A stretch of 12,062 nt of DNA from an uncultured Novosphingobium sp. (GTDB lineage: Bacteria > Pseudomonadota > Alphaproteobacteria > Sphingomonadales > Sphingomonadaceae): positions 1-12,062 of the forward strand of contig CALMBN010000039.1 of the NCBI GenBank assembly GCA_937860195.1. The letters are read 5' to 3'. Shown in pieces: positions 1 to 5,109 of the stretch. Made by a program: the position numbers and the translations under genes. Below the pieces are notes generated by a model. It searched no databases, was not told the origin of the DNA, and saw only the letters and a program-made list of their open reading frames with translations. Within the stretch, counting starts at the first letter, position 1, and every line of letters starts with the position of its first letter.

Positions 1-1449
1 GTCGCTCGCCAACCGCTCGCCCAGAAGGCGGCGACCGGTCATCCAGGTGAAGATGACGAAACCGATCCCCGCTGCCACCACGAGCGGCACCCAGCCGCCT
101 TGCGGGACCTTGAGCAGGTTTGCACCGAGGTAGGCCATGTCGACCACTATAAACACTGCAACCAGCGGCAGCGCCTTCCACAGCGGCCAACGCCACAGAC
201 TGATCAGCACCGCCGCCAACAGGATCGTGTCGATGAACATCGCACCGGTCACCGCGATGCCATAGGCTGCGGCGAGATTGCTGGAGGAACGGAAGAACAG
301 CACCAGCACGATAACCATGATCATCAGCCCCCAGTTTATCACCGGAATATAGATCTGCCCGGCGGCCGAAGCACTGGTGTGCTTGATCTGCATCCGCGGC
401 ATGAAGCCAAGCTGGATCGCTTGCTGGGTCAGGCTGAACGCGCCCGAGATCACGGCCTGACTGGCAATAATCGTCGCGGCCAGGGCCAGAAAAATGACCG
501 GAATTCGGACAATATCCGGGATCATCAGGAAGAACGGGTCCTTGATCAGCAACGCGGCCTGATCCGGCGTGGTCGAAAGCACCATCGCCCCCTGCCCCAT
601 GTAATTGAGCATCAGCGATGGCAGCACGAAGGTCATCCAACTGACCCCGATCGGCTTGCGACCGAAGTGGCCCATATCGGCATAGAGCGCTTCGGCTCCG
701 GTCACGGCGAGCACGACAGAGCCCATCGCCACAAAGGCACGAAACCCATCCGCCATGAAGAATTTGACCGCGTTGAGCGGATTGATGGTTTCAAGAATGA
801 TTGTCGGCATCGCGATCAGGTGCATCAATCCCATCGCTGCCAGGGTGAAGAAATAGAGCAGCATGATCGGCCCGAACAGCTTGCCGACCCTCTCCGTCCC
901 GCGCGCCTGGATCGCAAACAAGCCAAACAGGATGGCCACCGCCAGCGGCACGATCCATGTCTTGAAGCCGGGATTAACGTATTGCAGACCCTCGGTCGCC
1001 GAAAGCACCGACATCGCCGGCGTGATCATCGAATCGCCATAGAACAGCGCCGTTGCGAACACGCCAAGCAAGATGAACGGCCCGGTCCACTTGGCGCTTT
1101 CCGACTTGCGATTGATCAACGCGAGCAATGCGAGACTGCCGCCCTCGCCCTTGTTGTCGGCCTTCATGATCGTCAGGACGTATTTGAACGTCACCACGAT
1201 CATCATCGACCAGAACACCAGGCTCAGCACGCCATGGATATGGACCGGATCGACCTGAATTCCTGGCGCCCCATGGTGCGAGGCAAAAGTCTCGCGAAAT
1301 GCGTAAATCGGGCTGGTTCCGATATCACCGAACACCACACCAATCGCGCCGATCGCCAGCGCCACCACGCCGCCATGGTGATGACCGTGGCTATCGAAAG
1401 TTTGGCCGGACGAAGTGCCTTCGTCTGCGGCTTCAACTGGATCACTCAT
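1..1449 (-). CDS. kup: Kup family potassium uptake transporter (3' end outside window)
   Basis: Kup (TrkD) proteins are inner-membrane K+ uptake systems, thought to work as H+/K+ symporters. The minus frame from ATG 1449 stays open for 483 codons to the window edge. The family signature [11 protein letters not shown] lies at residues 41-51. It is followed by many hydrophobic segments and by family-like stretches such as [16 protein letters not shown] and [15 protein letters not shown] short His-rich stretch (HGHHHGG) precedes the first membrane segment. Kup proteins are usually about 620-640 residues, so roughly the first three quarters are present; the missing part should be mainly the C-terminal soluble region. 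A purine-rich AAGGGGG lies about 12 bases before the ATG, a slightly long spacing. The gene follows cycH by 75 bases on the same strand, and no terminator is visible between them. Identification is firm; H+ coupling is family knowledge. Confidence 0.95.
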
Positions 1450-1524
1450 GCAACCCGCAACCCCCTTGAGTCGGCGTAAGAAAACCAGTCTAGCACCAGG
1501 CGAAACCCCGGTCCAGAAATGCCG

Positions 1525-2166
1525 CTATGGCACAGCGCCTTGATCCTGCGCGGCGATGAAAGCATCAAGCCGTTCAAGCCGCATAGTCAGATCTGTTTTC
1601 CATGGAGCATCAGGCGGAGCGCTCGCCAGCAAATCAACCCACTGCGCACGACCTTCTTTCAATTGCCCGCTGCTGGTGAACGCAAGGCCCAGAAAGAACC
1701 TGGATCCAGGATGCTGCGGATCGGCCAAGGCAGCGCGGCGGTAGGCATAGAGCGCCGCCGGAGTCAGCCTCCCGTCGGCATGGGCGACCAGGTTGTTGGC
1801 GAGCGAAAGCCAGGCATCGGCATTGTTCGGATTCTGCTCAATCGCACCCAGCACCACACCCGCAGCATTGCCAAACTGACCATTGCGGGTCATCGCATCG
1901 GAAATGACCATCCACTGGTTGGGCATGGTGCCATTGCCGGCCAGCTTCTGGCGCACATCGACCAGTGCCGCCCCGTTGGTGGCAAGCCGCTGATTGGCCT
2001 CCTTGGGGGCACCGGGCAGGACCGGACCGGCCTGCAAGGCAAATCCTGCGAGACCCAATGCAAAGGCGCCGCCGGTCATTCTCCAACTTTTACGCGGCAC
2101 CTTCAAACCGAGTGCAAGCAGTGCAAAGCCGGCCAAGCCAAGCGCAATCGCCAAGACCAGGTTCAT
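1525..2166 (-). CDS. CycH/CcmI-like TPR protein of cytochrome c maturation
   Basis: This 213-residue protein has two hydrophobic segments (about residues 1-20 and 32-50). A periplasm-type domain with tetratricopeptide character follows, for example NADAWLSLANNLVAH, LYAYRRAALADPQHPGSRFF and LGLAFTSSGQLKEG. In System I, CycH/CcmI holds apocytochrome c for the heme ligation complex CcmF-CcmH. The layout matches the short CycH found in sphingomonad ccm clusters, and its place at the end of the ccm run supports the call. The ATG at 2166 has a good ribosome binding site (GGAGGA, 8 bases upstream) and overlaps the stop of the preceding 20-codon ORF as ATGA. The frame is intact. Because its usual partner CcmH is missing here and CcmF is altered, the present role is uncertain. 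TPR proteins are hard to assign by sequence alone, so the call leans partly on context. Confidence 0.75.
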   Translation of the reverse strand: MNLVLAIALGLAGFALLALGLKVPRKSWRMTGGAFALGLAGFALQAGPVLPGAPKEANQRLATNGAALVDVRQKLAGNGTMPNQWMVISDAMTRNGQFGNAAGVVLGAIEQNPNNADAWLSLANNLVAHADGRLTPAALYAYRRAALADPQHPGSRFFLGLAFTSSGQLKEGRAQWVDLLASAPPDAPWKTDLTMRLERLDAFIAAQDQGAVP

Positions 2167-2225
2167 GCCCGCTTTCCTCCGGTGAACTGCTGGCGCAGAA
2201 TCGTTGTGGCAAACAAATGCCTCAT
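2163..2225 (-). CDS. 20-codon ORF coupled to ccmF and cycH; possible ccmG/ccmH remnant
   Basis: The ORF encodes MRHLFATTILRQQFTGGKRA. Its ATG (2225) overlaps the ccmF stop as ATGA, and its own TGA overlaps the cycH ATG (2166) as ATGA, so it is linked by overlapping stop/start codons on both sides. A GAGG lies 8 bases before its start, and the SD of cycH (GGAGGA) lies inside it. In related clusters this slot normally holds ccmG (thioredoxin-like) and ccmH (apocytochrome reductase). One reading is that an internal deletion fused the first codons of one of those genes to the last codons of the other. Another is that it serves as a translational bridge. I cannot recognise a family from 20 residues, so the remnant idea is inference. 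Confidence 0.35.
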   Translation of the reverse strand: MRHLFATTILRQQFTGGKRA

Positions 2226-3793
2226 CGCCCCTGCCTCATCCGACGGTAAGCGATCTTGTCTTTCGCAATGACCCGCCGCAGGTCGCTTTGAACCCGGCCA
2301 ATCAGCGCGAGCAGGCCACCCAGCGCGATCAGCAGACCGCCATACCAGATCAGCGTCACGAATGGCTTCCACCACAGCCGCAGTTGCCAGCGGTCTTCGC
2401 TCACTTCATCGCCAATCACGGCATAGAGTTGGCCGTTCCATCGCGTCGCCACAGCCGCCGCGTTGGTGCCATGTTGCGGTGACCAGAACGTGCGGGCCTG
2501 CGGCATAAGCGTTTGGGCTGAGCCGCCATCATAGCGGACCTGCAACGTCGCCTGAAGCGCAGTCCAATTGGGGCCGGCCACCGGATCAACCCGGGCGAGT
2601 TCGGCTTGCCAAGGCCCAACCTGCACCGTGTCGCCTTGCCTCGCTGCGACCAGCCGCTCCACTGTGAAGGCGCGGTCTGCCGCGATTCCAAACAGCGCCG
2701 CCGCAACCCCAAGGTGCGCTATGGCAACGCCCCAGTGCGGAAGTGTTGCCATCCGCAATTTTCGACCACGCAAGGGAACCAGGCTCACAAGCGCCACTAT
2801 GGGGGCAAGAGCGATTCCCAGCCAAGGCAGCTTCATCAGCATCGCCGCAAGCAGTGCCGCGTTCATCGAGTGGAAATCCGCCCAGAGCTGCTTGCCCATT
2901 GCCCAGGTCAAAAATGGATGAAACGTGCCAACCAATGACATTGCAAAGGTCAGCGCGCCCAGCGCTATCGTCCGGCTTCTGAGCGCATCACGGGCAGCAA
3001 GCGCCGAATTGGAATGGAGCAAGGCGATCGCAGTCAGCCATGACAGCACGCTGGCGTTCGTGGCACTATCCCCCGGCCACCAGTCAGCCCGACCATTCGC
3101 ATGGTATGCCAGAAAGGAGCCGGTCGTGATTCCGACGGTAAGGAAGATCCAGGCACCAAGCACCCATGGCCGCATCGCGCGGGCGAAAGCAGGGCCTATT
3201 TGGCGGGTGATCAGCGCGCCAACCATAAAGCTGAAGGCTACTGATAGCCCGACATAGCCGGTGTAAAGCGCCAGTGGCTGGAATGCGAGGCCCGCATCTT
3301 GCAGCAGTTGATTGAGGCCAAGCCCCTCTTTCGGCGCTGGATTGGCCCGCACGAACGGGTTCATGACGAACAACAAAAATGCGTAGATACCGATGCTGAC
3401 GAAGGCTTGGGCAGCCAGTGTTGCCAGCATTGTCCGCTCGGGCAAACGCCGCTCAACCAGCGCGATAAAACCACCGGCCAGACCCATCAGCGTTACCCAC
3501 AGCAGCAGCGCGCCTTCGAGGGTCCCCCAGGCTCGCGCGAACTTATCGAGAAATGGCGTGGCCGAATGCGCGTTCTTGGCGACCAGCAACACCGAAAGGT
3601 CGGTCACACAAAAAAGATAGATCAGAACTGCAAAGGCCAGCGCCGCCATCAAGCCTTGCGCCATTGCCGCCGGCCGCACCAGATCTGTCACCGCCTGCGT
3701 GTTGCGGGTGAGTGACAGCCCCCCCGCGACCAATTGAAGGAGTGCCAAGGCCGCAGCGAACCAGAGCGCCGCCAAGCCAAAGCTGGCGATCAC
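2222..3793 (-). CDS. ccmF: CcmF-like heme lyase subunit, short and lacking key motifs
   Basis: CcmF is the polytopic inner-membrane core of the System I heme ligase, passing heme from holo-CcmE to apocytochrome c. The GTG start at 3793 overlaps the ccmE stop (GTGA). Family-like parts are the N-terminus (VTDLSVLLVAKNAHS, residues 63-77), His260 in LLHS, His360 in AHLG, and the C-terminal block GPNWTALQATL...RWNGQLYAVI...LRLWWKPFVTLIWYGG. At 523 residues it is about 120-130 short of the usual 640-650. The deficit falls between His260 and His360, where the normal LVRSGVLTSVHAF segment with one heme-binding His should be. The tryptophan motif (normally like WWFWDPVENAS) reads WWPGDSATNAS at 238-248. 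The usual HPP histidine is replaced (FQP, 171-173), and the NHEGS-type histidine is lost (TLEGA, 91-95). No stop or frameshift is seen. The protein is probably not a normal CcmF; it could be decayed or repurposed. Confidence 0.8.
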   Translation of the reverse strand: MIASFGLAALWFAAALALLQLVAGGLSLTRNTQAVTDLVRPAAMAQGLMAALAFAVLIYLFCVTDLSVLLVAKNAHSATPFLDKFARAWGTLEGALLLWVTLMGLAGGFIALVERRLPERTMLATLAAQAFVSIGIYAFLLFVMNPFVRANPAPKEGLGLNQLLQDAGLAFQPLALYTGYVGLSVAFSFMVGALITRQIGPAFARAMRPWVLGAWIFLTVGITTGSFLAYHANGRADWWPGDSATNASVLSWLTAIALLHSNSALAARDALRSRTIALGALTFAMSLVGTFHPFLTWAMGKQLWADFHSMNAALLAAMLMKLPWLGIALAPIVALVSLVPLRGRKLRMATLPHWGVAIAHLGVAAALFGIAADRAFTVERLVAARQGDTVQVGPWQAELARVDPVAGPNWTALQATLQVRYDGGSAQTLMPQARTFWSPQHGTNAAAVATRWNGQLYAVIGDEVSEDRWQLRLWWKPFVTLIWYGGLLIALGGLLALIGRVQSDLRRVIAKDKIAYRRMRQGR

Positions 3794-4248
3794 TCGGTCT
3801 TTTCCACCGCCTGGCGGGCTTGCGCTTCAGTCATGTCTTTCATTTCACGCGGAACATATTTCTCGTCATGCTTGGCAAGCAGATTGTCAGCGACAAACGT
3901 GCCGTCAGCACGGCGTTTGCCTTCGGCCACCACGCCAGAATTCTCCTTGAACAGGTCCGGCACGATACCTTTGAACTCTACCGGGATGCGCGCCTTGCCA
4001 TCCCCAACGACGAAGCGAACGGTTACACCGTCAGCGGCTGTTTTGATCGAACCGGTTTCGACCATGCCCCCCAAACGTACCGCCCGGTCCAATGCCGGGG
4101 GATCGTCCTGCATCTGGGTCGGCAGATAGAAAAATGACGCTTGATTGCGAAGCGACCAGGCCGCCAGCAACCCTGCCCCGATCAGCGCCACCAGCGCAAT
4201 CAGGACCAGGACCAACCGCTGGTGTTTGGCTTTTAGAGGGCTGCTCAT
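3790..4248 (-). CDS. ccmE: Cytochrome c maturation heme chaperone CcmE
   Basis: CcmE is a membrane-anchored periplasmic chaperone that binds heme covalently through a histidine and carries it from CcmC/CcmD to CcmF. The 152-residue product has a short basic N-terminus (KAKHQR), one membrane anchor (about residues 11-31) and an OB-fold domain. RLGGMVETGSI and VRFVVGDGKARIPVEFKG match the family pattern. The heme-binding motif HDEKY is present, with His127 as the expected covalent site and Tyr131 as the axial ligand. Length is normal. The ATG at 4248 overlaps the ccmD stop as ATGA, and its stop overlaps the ccmF GTG. It appears fully intact, in contrast to its neighbours ccmC and ccmF. Confidence 0.93.
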   Translation of the reverse strand: MSSPLKAKHQRLVLVLIALVALIGAGLLAAWSLRNQASFFYLPTQMQDDPPALDRAVRLGGMVETGSIKTAADGVTVRFVVGDGKARIPVEFKGIVPDLFKENSGVVAEGKRRADGTFVADNLLAKHDEKYVPREMKDMTEAQARQAVEKTE

Positions 4249-4385
4249 CGATCCCGGGCCTCTTCCCGGCGGGCCTCGGCGCGGCGCATAGCCCGCACAC
4301 TGCCGCCGATCAGCAACGCGGTTGCCAGAACCGTGACTGCAAATGCTCCGCTAACGTAGGGCCAATGGTTCAGAGATTCAGCCAT
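4245..4385 (-). CDS. ccmD: Small heme exporter-associated protein CcmD
   Basis: This 46-residue protein begins MAESLNHWPYVSGAF. It has one membrane segment (about residues 10-30) and then a strongly charged tail rich in Arg and Glu (MRRAEARREEARDR). That is the usual plan of CcmD: one helix, the aromatic-rich N-terminal W-x-Y-V-x-x-A/S-(F/Y) pattern, and a basic cytoplasmic tail. CcmD helps release holo-CcmE from the CcmABC complex. Its start lies inside the end of ccmC (8-base overlap), and its stop overlaps the ccmE start as ATGA. CcmD sequences are poorly conserved, so the call rests on size, topology and position, which all agree. Confidence 0.85.
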   Translation of the reverse strand: MAESLNHWPYVSGAFAVTVLATALLIGGSVRAMRRAEARREEARDR

Positions 4386-5109
4386 CAATTGCCTCCATCG
4401 CGCGACGACGCAGACGGGCCTCCGCCTGCGATTCCGCGAGAATTGTTCGCATCCGCATCAATACGACCGCACCGAAAATCAGCGAGAAGCCAAGCGTTGA
4501 GGCGAGCAGCCCGTATAGAAACTCCGGCGCCATTTCGCTCTTGCCCGCACTGATCGAAGGCGGCTGATGCAGACTGTTCCACCACAGCACCGAATAATGG
4601 ATGATCGGAATGTTCACAGCTCCAACCAGACCGAAGATCGCGGGAAGCCGCGAGCCGCCCTCCCCGTCACGATTGGCCGCGTCGGCCAGTGCGATATAAC
4701 CGCAATAGACAAAGAACAGCACCAGCATCGAAGTTAGTCGCCCATCCCAGACCCACCAGGTTCCCCAGGCCGGGCGGCCCCAGAGCGAGCCAGTGGCAAG
4801 GCACAGCAACGAAAAAATCGCGCCAGGCAAGGCAATCGCCCTTCCGGCGATACCAGCCAAGGGATGCCGCCAGACCAGCTCGGTCAGGCTGGCCACCGCA
4901 ATCGCGCTCCACCCGCCCATGCCAAGCCAGGCGGTAGGCACGTGAGCGAACAGAATTCGGACTGAATCGCCTTGCAAACGCTCCGCAGGTACGCCCAGCA
5001 GACCTCAGCCCAGCGCCGCCAGCGTGAGCACGATCCCAGACCAGAGCAGAGGCCCGGTCAGCGCACGGGCGAGACGCAGAAAACGGGCAGGATTGGCGTA
5101 AGCGTGCAT
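4378..5109 (-). pseudogene. ccmC: ccmC, heme-handling protein, interrupted by in-frame TGA at codon 35
   Basis: CcmC is the inner-membrane protein that presents heme to CcmE. Read from ATG 5109 (AAGGG 3 bases upstream), the frame begins MHAYANPARFLRLARALTGP and enters the first membrane helix. It then meets TGA at 5007-5005 (codon 35) and resumes in the same frame as GLLGVPAERLQGDSVRILF. Total span is 243 codons plus stop, the normal CcmC length. Downstream of the stop everything looks intact: His56 in FAHVP, the WWD motif WGTWWVWDGRLTS (115-127), NIPIIHYSVLWWN and LHQPP. A restart at TTG 4977 (codon 45) would give 199 residues but lose the first membrane helix, and no well-spaced SD is seen there. 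One base change accounts for the lesion, so a sequencing error is possible; real inactivation fits the altered ccmF and missing ccmG/ccmH. Confidence 0.85.

Follow-up and report, generated by a model that had tools for sequence, protein, structure and literature searches.

Why would an operon for cytochrome c maturation (ccm) hold on to an open reading frame for a heme lyase from which the ligation site has gone? The question is raised by a stretch of 12,062 nucleotides (the window), which is the whole of contig C39 in a 71% complete assembly of 2.31 Mb and 359 contigs (G000, GCA_937860195.1) from an uncultured bacterium, placed in Novosphingobium by named relatives. At 2222..3793, on the minus strand like all window features given below, lies ccmF1-short, encoding a CcmF-derived protein of 523 amino acids whose ligation site is destroyed and whose transmembrane (TM)-heme histidines are kept. 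We propose that a second module, CcmF2-CcmG2-CcmH2 (CcmF2GH), displaced the native lyase, and that the C-terminal part of the native protein (CcmF1) was then kept as a scaffold on the CcmI side; to this explanation as a whole we assign a probability of roughly 0.52. Its two steps differ in strength, since the replacement of the native lyase by CcmF2GH is very probable and the kept scaffold role stands at even odds.

The frame starts with GTG, overlaps the ccmE stop and encodes a CcmF by its architecture, with the Pfam domains Cytochrom_C_asm (68.9 bits) and CcmF_C (164.7 bits) both above cut-off. An AlphaFold model of the protein (predicted local distance difference test score, pLDDT, 75; predicted template modelling score, pTM, 0.72) has CcmF 6ZMQ as its top PDB match (E 4.8e-18, TM-score 0.67). 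The protein reaches 322 bits against NCBIfam TIGR00353, below the cut-off of 569 that the canonical P0002 passes with 600 bits and that a canonical-looking CcmF2 also narrowly misses with 550 bits. Residues were mapped against 119 canonical homologues (P0002-P0120 among the matches listed, P0001 excepted), and E. coli CcmF numbers were transferred by motif, without aligning E. coli CcmF itself. P-His1 (H172) has become glutamine (codon Q172, 3278..3280), and P-His2 (H302) falls within a missing stretch. The WWD tryptophan W228 (E. coli W229) is now leucine (3110..3112) and the WWD glutamate E245 (E. coli E246) is threonine (3059..3061), with further changes at the canonical residues H92 (to L), W235 (to R) and W241 (to G). 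TM-His1 (H260, 3014..3016) and TM-His2 (canonical H484, here H360, 2714..2716) are kept. This residue map bears out the preliminary description of the DNA, which had recognized an open CcmF frame with changed or lost heme-handling motifs and with the two stable heme b ligands still in place.

Between these histidines lies a junction (residues 292-330, 2804..2920), which lacks the P-His2 loop and in which the alignment is uncertain; judged by lengths, the net loss relative to P0002 and P0003 is 124 codons, and it is in frame. The C-terminal part (residues 331-523, 2222..2803) comprises the periplasmic beta domain and the last helix, and is better predicted in the model than the WWD stretch (235-251) and the junction (300-318), where pLDDT drops below 50. 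Among the columns conserved in at least 99% of the canonical proteins, 55 of the 258 still present are changed in the window protein and another 57 fall within the part that is lost, compared with a mean of 0.5 and a maximum of 4 changes at such columns when each of the 119 canonical proteins is left out in turn. W229A and E246A abolish the synthase function of E. coli CcmF, and both P-His residues are required (PMC10746174). With the loss of four residues that are reported to be essential for ligation, the window protein can hardly be a heme lyase. That it could serve an unusual substrate instead, in the manner of NrfE or SirE, is close to refuted: CcmF paralogues with special substrates exist (PMC6976685), but this one lacks both P-His and the two WWD residues at which an alanine replacement inactivated E. 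coli CcmF, and the neighbouring ccmG and ccmH are gone.

Could the short form simply be a chimeric or misbinned contig, or a sequence error, given that the window comes from so incomplete and fragmented an assembly? The preliminary description had named a sequence error as one way in which its proposal might fall, and had suggested looking for the same short form in other genomes. Such a form exists: P0001, from another assembly, also has 523 amino acids, is 98% identical to the window protein and carries the same deletion and motif losses, which makes a sequencing or assembly error very unlikely. The two proteins differ by 10 substitutions, 8 of them within residues 303-383; the 90%-identity cluster of P0001 has 11 members, the window's own possibly among them, and its longest contig is 52 kb. 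Moreover, the ccm-kup neighbourhood is the one typical of the genus, and CcmF2 and CcmF1 occur together in other Novosphingobium genomes, including the single-contig genome G077. An artefact is thus highly improbable. Canonical close relatives together with a ratio of nonsynonymous to synonymous rates near 1 would, by the preliminary description, have refuted its proposal; the nearest species examined and the nearest proteins, P0002 and P0003, are indeed canonical, while synonymous change on this branch is saturated.

What, then, ligates heme in this organism? Cytochrome c1 is kept in the assembly, and heme ligation is therefore still needed. The sole other CcmF, a protein of 648 amino acids on contig C94, has all six key residues intact and is encoded within the order outer-membrane-type protein, ccmF2, ccmG (Redoxin), ccmH (PF03918) and an aminotransferase-family gene (by Pfam), which we take to encode 5-aminolevulinate (ALA) synthase. 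P-His1, P-His2, TM-His1, TM-His2 and the equivalents of W229 and E246 are all kept in this CcmF2 and in those of two further Novosphingobium genomes, G213 and G156. In a tree, the 12 CcmF2 proteins included group as a single clade (support 1.0) next to ten sequences of Sphingomonas type and apart from the window's native CcmF. Six CcmF2 stretches (L004, L005, L038, L211, L212 and L214) contain no ccmI match at E 1e-3. Relatives that we examined show the gene order ccmC-E-F-G-H-I-kup (ccmD lay outside that search), whereas the window reads tRNA-His, ccmC, ccmD, ccmE, altered ccmF, a ccmI-like tetratricopeptide repeat (TPR) gene and kup. In place of ccmG and ccmH there are 55 bp (2167..2221) between the ccmF stop and ccmI, in which no remnant of either gene was seen. 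With a complete CcmF2-CcmG2-CcmH2 present in this assembly, CcmF2GH has most likely assumed the ligation step. The module would ligate all c-type cytochromes here, and CcmF1-short is presumed to be expressed.

The CcmF2 genes of G013 and G077 come after a multiheme cytochrome, with 37 CXXCH motifs in one 956-amino-acid frame of L214. Three stretches (L214:7037-16601, L038:2-7853 and L004:4-5861, the last being C94) represent a cluster in which genes for a multiheme cytochrome and an outer-membrane-type protein are joined by ccmF2, ccmG2, ccmH2 and a gene resembling ALA synthase. This is a candidate locus for extracellular electron transfer, equipped with a heme ligation set of its own. The outer-membrane-type protein of L038 carries a SPOR domain, and contig C94 begins inside the outer membrane gene. 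Near the CcmF2 genes of G213 and G156, no multiheme cytochrome is found within the stretches examined.

Is the reduction of native CcmF a single accident, or does it follow the second module? Across 195 Novosphingobium genomes, CcmF2-type genes (at least 73% identity to the C94 protein, the next match having at most 64%) occur in at least 13. In 8 of these 13 carriers native CcmF1 has its full length, and in 2 it is apparently divided by contig ends; the 3 reduced cases are G000, to which the window belongs, and the two sister species G213 and G156. Reduced CcmF1 is thus found in 3 of 13 carriers versus none seen in the 182 others (Fisher p=2e-4, or about 0.004 if counted as two events), the latter including 7 genomes without a CcmF match and not all having been checked frame by frame. 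In a CcmE+Kup tree of 28 loci of our choosing, G213 and G156 group together (1.00), and species with canonical CcmF1 lie between them and G000, so that the reductions are separate. There have therefore been at least two reductions of native CcmF, both in genomes that carry CcmF2.

Several other genomes initially resembled further cases. Short CcmF matches in G012, G036, G017 and G020 were rejected as contig ends, and those in G173 and G132 as two pieces on different contigs. From 26 genomes picked for weak, split or absent CcmF, 19 gave a match and 7 did not, and no single short CcmF frame was present among the 19. One of these, G158, has two complete genes; the rest have pieces on different contigs or frames that resemble contig ends or frameshifts, although the ends were not checked individually. 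The genes of G158 (G158:C2:1062486-1063379 and 1139939-1140823) are both of the native type, with frames of 676 amino acids about 77 kb apart. G153 (78% complete) carries a full-length native-type CcmF with one internal TAA at G153:C111:703-2616, and no CcmF was found in G001 and G139 (83% and 89% complete).

The second reduction took a different form, which points to what may be kept. In G213 and G156, ccmE is followed by a single open reading frame of 435 and 446 amino acids, respectively, which joins the CcmF C-terminal domain to the CcmI TPR region and precedes kup (L209:5137-6444 and L210:636-1976). At E 1e-20, the fusion profile matches nothing but this fusion in either genome, whereas most of the 195 genomes show two matches, those listed being mainly a separate CcmI; the fusion is therefore apparently their only CcmI. 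Full-length fusions occur in 2 of the 195 genus genomes, both CcmF2 carriers. The window shares with this arrangement the place after ccmE, the loss of ccmG and ccmH and the presence of CcmF2GH elsewhere in the genome, and differs in that ccmF and ccmI are separate genes 55 bp apart. Upstream, ccmC no longer stands before ccmE in G213, where a ccmD-like frame remains (L209:4536-4685), and the G156 contig begins just before ccmE (L210:1-196); each of the two genomes has one further CcmC-sized PF01578 protein on another contig.

Beyond these genomes, a search with the G213 fusion yielded 37 protein clusters, mostly of 390-470 amino acids and down to 36% identity, of which 35 were aligned after omission of the shorter P0250 and P0259. 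A cysteine stands at position 126 in 34 of the 35 and at position 211 in all 35, while canonical CcmF has a mean of 0.3 cysteines in its last 200 residues. This conserved pair, which canonical CcmF does not have, argues for selection on the CcmF-derived part of the fusions. The N-terminus of P0273 resembles the first CcmF helix (by eye), a likeness that points to an origin of the fusions by internal deletion. P0271 was considered as a triple CcmE-CcmF_C-CcmI fusion and rejected as a probable frameshift, its CcmE lacking LAKHDEKY (by eye). The model of the G213 fusion (pLDDT 81, pTM 0.75) consists of four helices, a beta domain, a long helix, a further helix and the TPR region. Outside the genus, no fusion was detected in 397 family genomes with either the A2 profile or P0276; neither set had a positive control, and without a known-positive genome these zeros show little. 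None was found in plasmids. One member of the family, P0247, bears the JGI label 'Cytochrome c-type biogenesis protein CcmF C-terminal/Tetratricopeptide repeat', a domain name, and no description of a disarmed CcmF or of a CcmF_C-CcmI fusion was found in the titles and abstract openings of open-licence PMC literature.

The main rival explanation is that ccmF1 is a relic on its way out, decaying after the CcmF2GH takeover, its frame open by luck or to avoid polarity on the downstream ccmI. We consider this somewhat unlikely. Redundancy with CcmF2, the completed deletion of ccmG and ccmH and the long terminal branch of the window protein in the CcmF tree (0.448 versus a median of 0.083) would all fit a relic. 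Against it stands first the open frame, in which there is neither stop nor frameshift: on the assumption that every change at a conserved column is neutral, the whole gene should contain 5.1 stops (P(none) = 0.006), in keeping with the remark of the preliminary description that random decay should have left some. Calibrated on the N part, the probability of no stop is 0.004, and for residues 1-330 only it is 0.029. It is unlikely that the gene as a whole has been decaying neutrally. Moreover, the 124-codon net loss is in frame, the frame persists in a second population (P0001), the fusions keep the C-terminal domain, and ccmI has its own GGAGG, though polarity may still play a part.

The distribution of changes also speaks against a simple relic. 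Changed conserved columns make up 40 of 172 in the N part and 6 of 73 in the C part (Fisher p=0.007), with 9 of 13 at the junction and none of 24 in residues 461-523. Within the N part, 28 of 67 columns are changed in the heme segments and 12 of 105 in the rest (p=7e-6), a comparison that is descriptive and not a test, the segments having been chosen with the motifs already known. The usual marks of a pseudogene, that is, stops, frameshifts and evenly spread changes, are thus absent. A codon model with free N/C ratios on the window branch gained 8.1 log units over one in which constraint is proportional (p=6e-5; 9 of 22 aligned sequences, only the N/C comparison being used), a sign that constraint has shifted between the two parts. 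The ratios of nonsynonymous to synonymous rates (dN/dS) on that branch, 0.08 for the N part and 0.07 for the C part, come at about 6.3 neutral changes per codon, a saturation at which absolute values are not credible, and are further distorted by G+C content at third codon positions (N part 0.70 in the window versus 0.82-0.86 in six relatives). The preliminary description had left the choice between a protein kept for another role and a very recently relaxed gene; the former is favoured here, if not proven, and the latter fits poorly, because changes such as F240P, L233N and E245T each need at least two base changes and because a 98%-identical short form already exists elsewhere.

If CcmF1-short was kept for another role, might that role be heme binding without ligation, as had also been proposed? 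CcmF1-short would then be a pseudo-lyase that keeps the TM heme (H260/H360) and acts as a quinol-to-heme reductase or as a partner of CcmF2. Both TM-His residues survive, the model matches 6ZMQ at a TM-score of 0.67, and the TM heme has been proposed to reduce the P-heme (PMC10746174, PMC10663686), all of which speaks for the idea. However, CcmF2 has its own residue set, the helices around the junction are poorly predicted, and the site is not kept in the fusion lineage, where 0 of 35 proteins have a histidine in the TM-His2 column and the stretch bearing TM-His1 is gone. The TM heme is therefore not what the other lineage kept, and we regard this role as improbable for the window protein as well.

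The explanation that we prefer, displacement followed by retention of a scaffold, would run as follows. CcmF2-CcmG2-CcmH2 very probably superseded the native ccm operon at the heme-ligation step, and the changes that the window shows, the deletion of native ccmG and ccmH and the loss of the P-heme/WWD ligation site from native CcmF, would have followed. CcmE and CcmI continue to come from the native operon. CcmI acts in the ligation complex as the chaperone for apocytochrome, and both R. capsulatus and B. japonicum require it (PMC3884852); in Shewanella it has been proposed to serve the second lyase SirEFG too (PMC6976685). We propose that CcmF2GH has no CcmI of its own and draws on that of the old operon. 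In CcmF, a periplasmic domain made of beta strands is located over the active site (PMC10663686); in CcmF1, at least the C-terminal beta domain and the last helices are probably retained as a membrane scaffold that places CcmI by the second lyase. Such a role would be explicit in G213 and G156 as one polypeptide, and in the window it would still be shared by two adjacent genes, while the unused core of the lyase erodes. More tentatively, and at somewhat below even odds, the CcmF C-terminal part may be a separable adaptor between CcmI and lyase that outlives the lyase core, freed at least twice after displacement by CcmF2GH and in one lineage founding a new fusion family with a cysteine pair, to which the window protein would be an intermediate.

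Several observations weigh against this explanation, some of them in favour of a relic. The C part is itself relaxed, with its 6 changed columns of 73 against about 0.14 expected from the leave-one-out mean, and at the C-part rate the probability of finding no stop rises to 0.16; both would suit a relic, as would the stop codon of ccmC in this assembly. With synonymous changes saturated, no clean dN/dS is available. Between 8 and 10 of the 13 CcmF2 carriers retain an apparently complete CcmF1, and the presence of CcmF2 is therefore not enough to bring about the change. In the window protein the cysteine pair of the fusions is absent, no cysteine occurring in its last 200 residues, and the fusion model matches 6ZMQ weakly (first PDB match, E 1.6e-3, TM-score 0.28) and then mainly TPR proteins. 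Additionally, an assembly that is 71% complete may have missed a third CcmF, CcmG or CcmH, and C39 is tied to C94 by binning plus co-occurrence in other genomes.

How does this arrangement compare with known systems? Relative to CcmF of E. coli and T. thermophilus (6ZMQ), the window protein shows homology over both halves, the position after ccmE, the TM-heme histidines and the C-terminal beta domain, but it lacks P-His1, P-His2, the W229/E246 equivalents and 124 codons, and scores below the family cut-off. In plant mitochondria, CcmF is split into CcmFN1, CcmFN2 and CcmFC, the C-terminal part being a separate protein, and the pieces together keep the whole active site. CcmF in pieces is also hinted at in PMC3884852. 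The remnant in G213 and G156 resembles the plant case in setting the C-terminal part apart, but is without a lyase core and fused to CcmI. As with NrfE and SirE, there are two CcmF-type proteins per cell, and CcmI has been proposed for the second lyase in Shewanella (PMC6976685); there, however, both lyases are used, whereas G000 has a disarmed housekeeping lyase and a canonical second one. E. coli CcmH, a CcmH-CcmI fusion, likewise joins the CcmI TPR region to a protein of the ligation complex (PMC8975832), yet the fusion partner in G213 and G156 is the CcmF C-terminal domain and not CcmH.

Lineages that drop the lyase core and yet keep or fuse the CcmF C-terminal domain point to this domain as a CcmI-side module, and the natural fusions are ready-made constructs for testing it. 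The locus would also exemplify how, within a living operon, the ligation step of System I passes to a second CcmFGH set, one that adjoins a multiheme cytochrome in two genomes examined (G013 and G077).

The remaining genes of the window complete the native operon. Downstream of ccmF1-short, the ccmI-like TPR protein (1525..2166) has 213 amino acids, with the GGAGG ahead of its own ATG. Upstream, ccmE (3790..4248) has the LAKHDEKY motif and encodes the single CcmE match in the assembly, and ccmD (4245..4385), of 46 amino acids, is named from position and length. The ccmC gene (4378..5109) contains an in-frame TGA at codon 35 (5005-5007), where the near-identical P0121 (243 amino acids) has tryptophan, and this TGA is strain-specific or an error by that comparison. 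A general decay of the operon, which the stop might have signalled, is weakened as a candidate because P0121 is full length with tryptophan at that codon, being 99% identical over the 203 residues compared. At the other end, the kup potassium transporter gene (4..1497) is cut by the contig end and marks the conserved ccm-kup neighbourhood.

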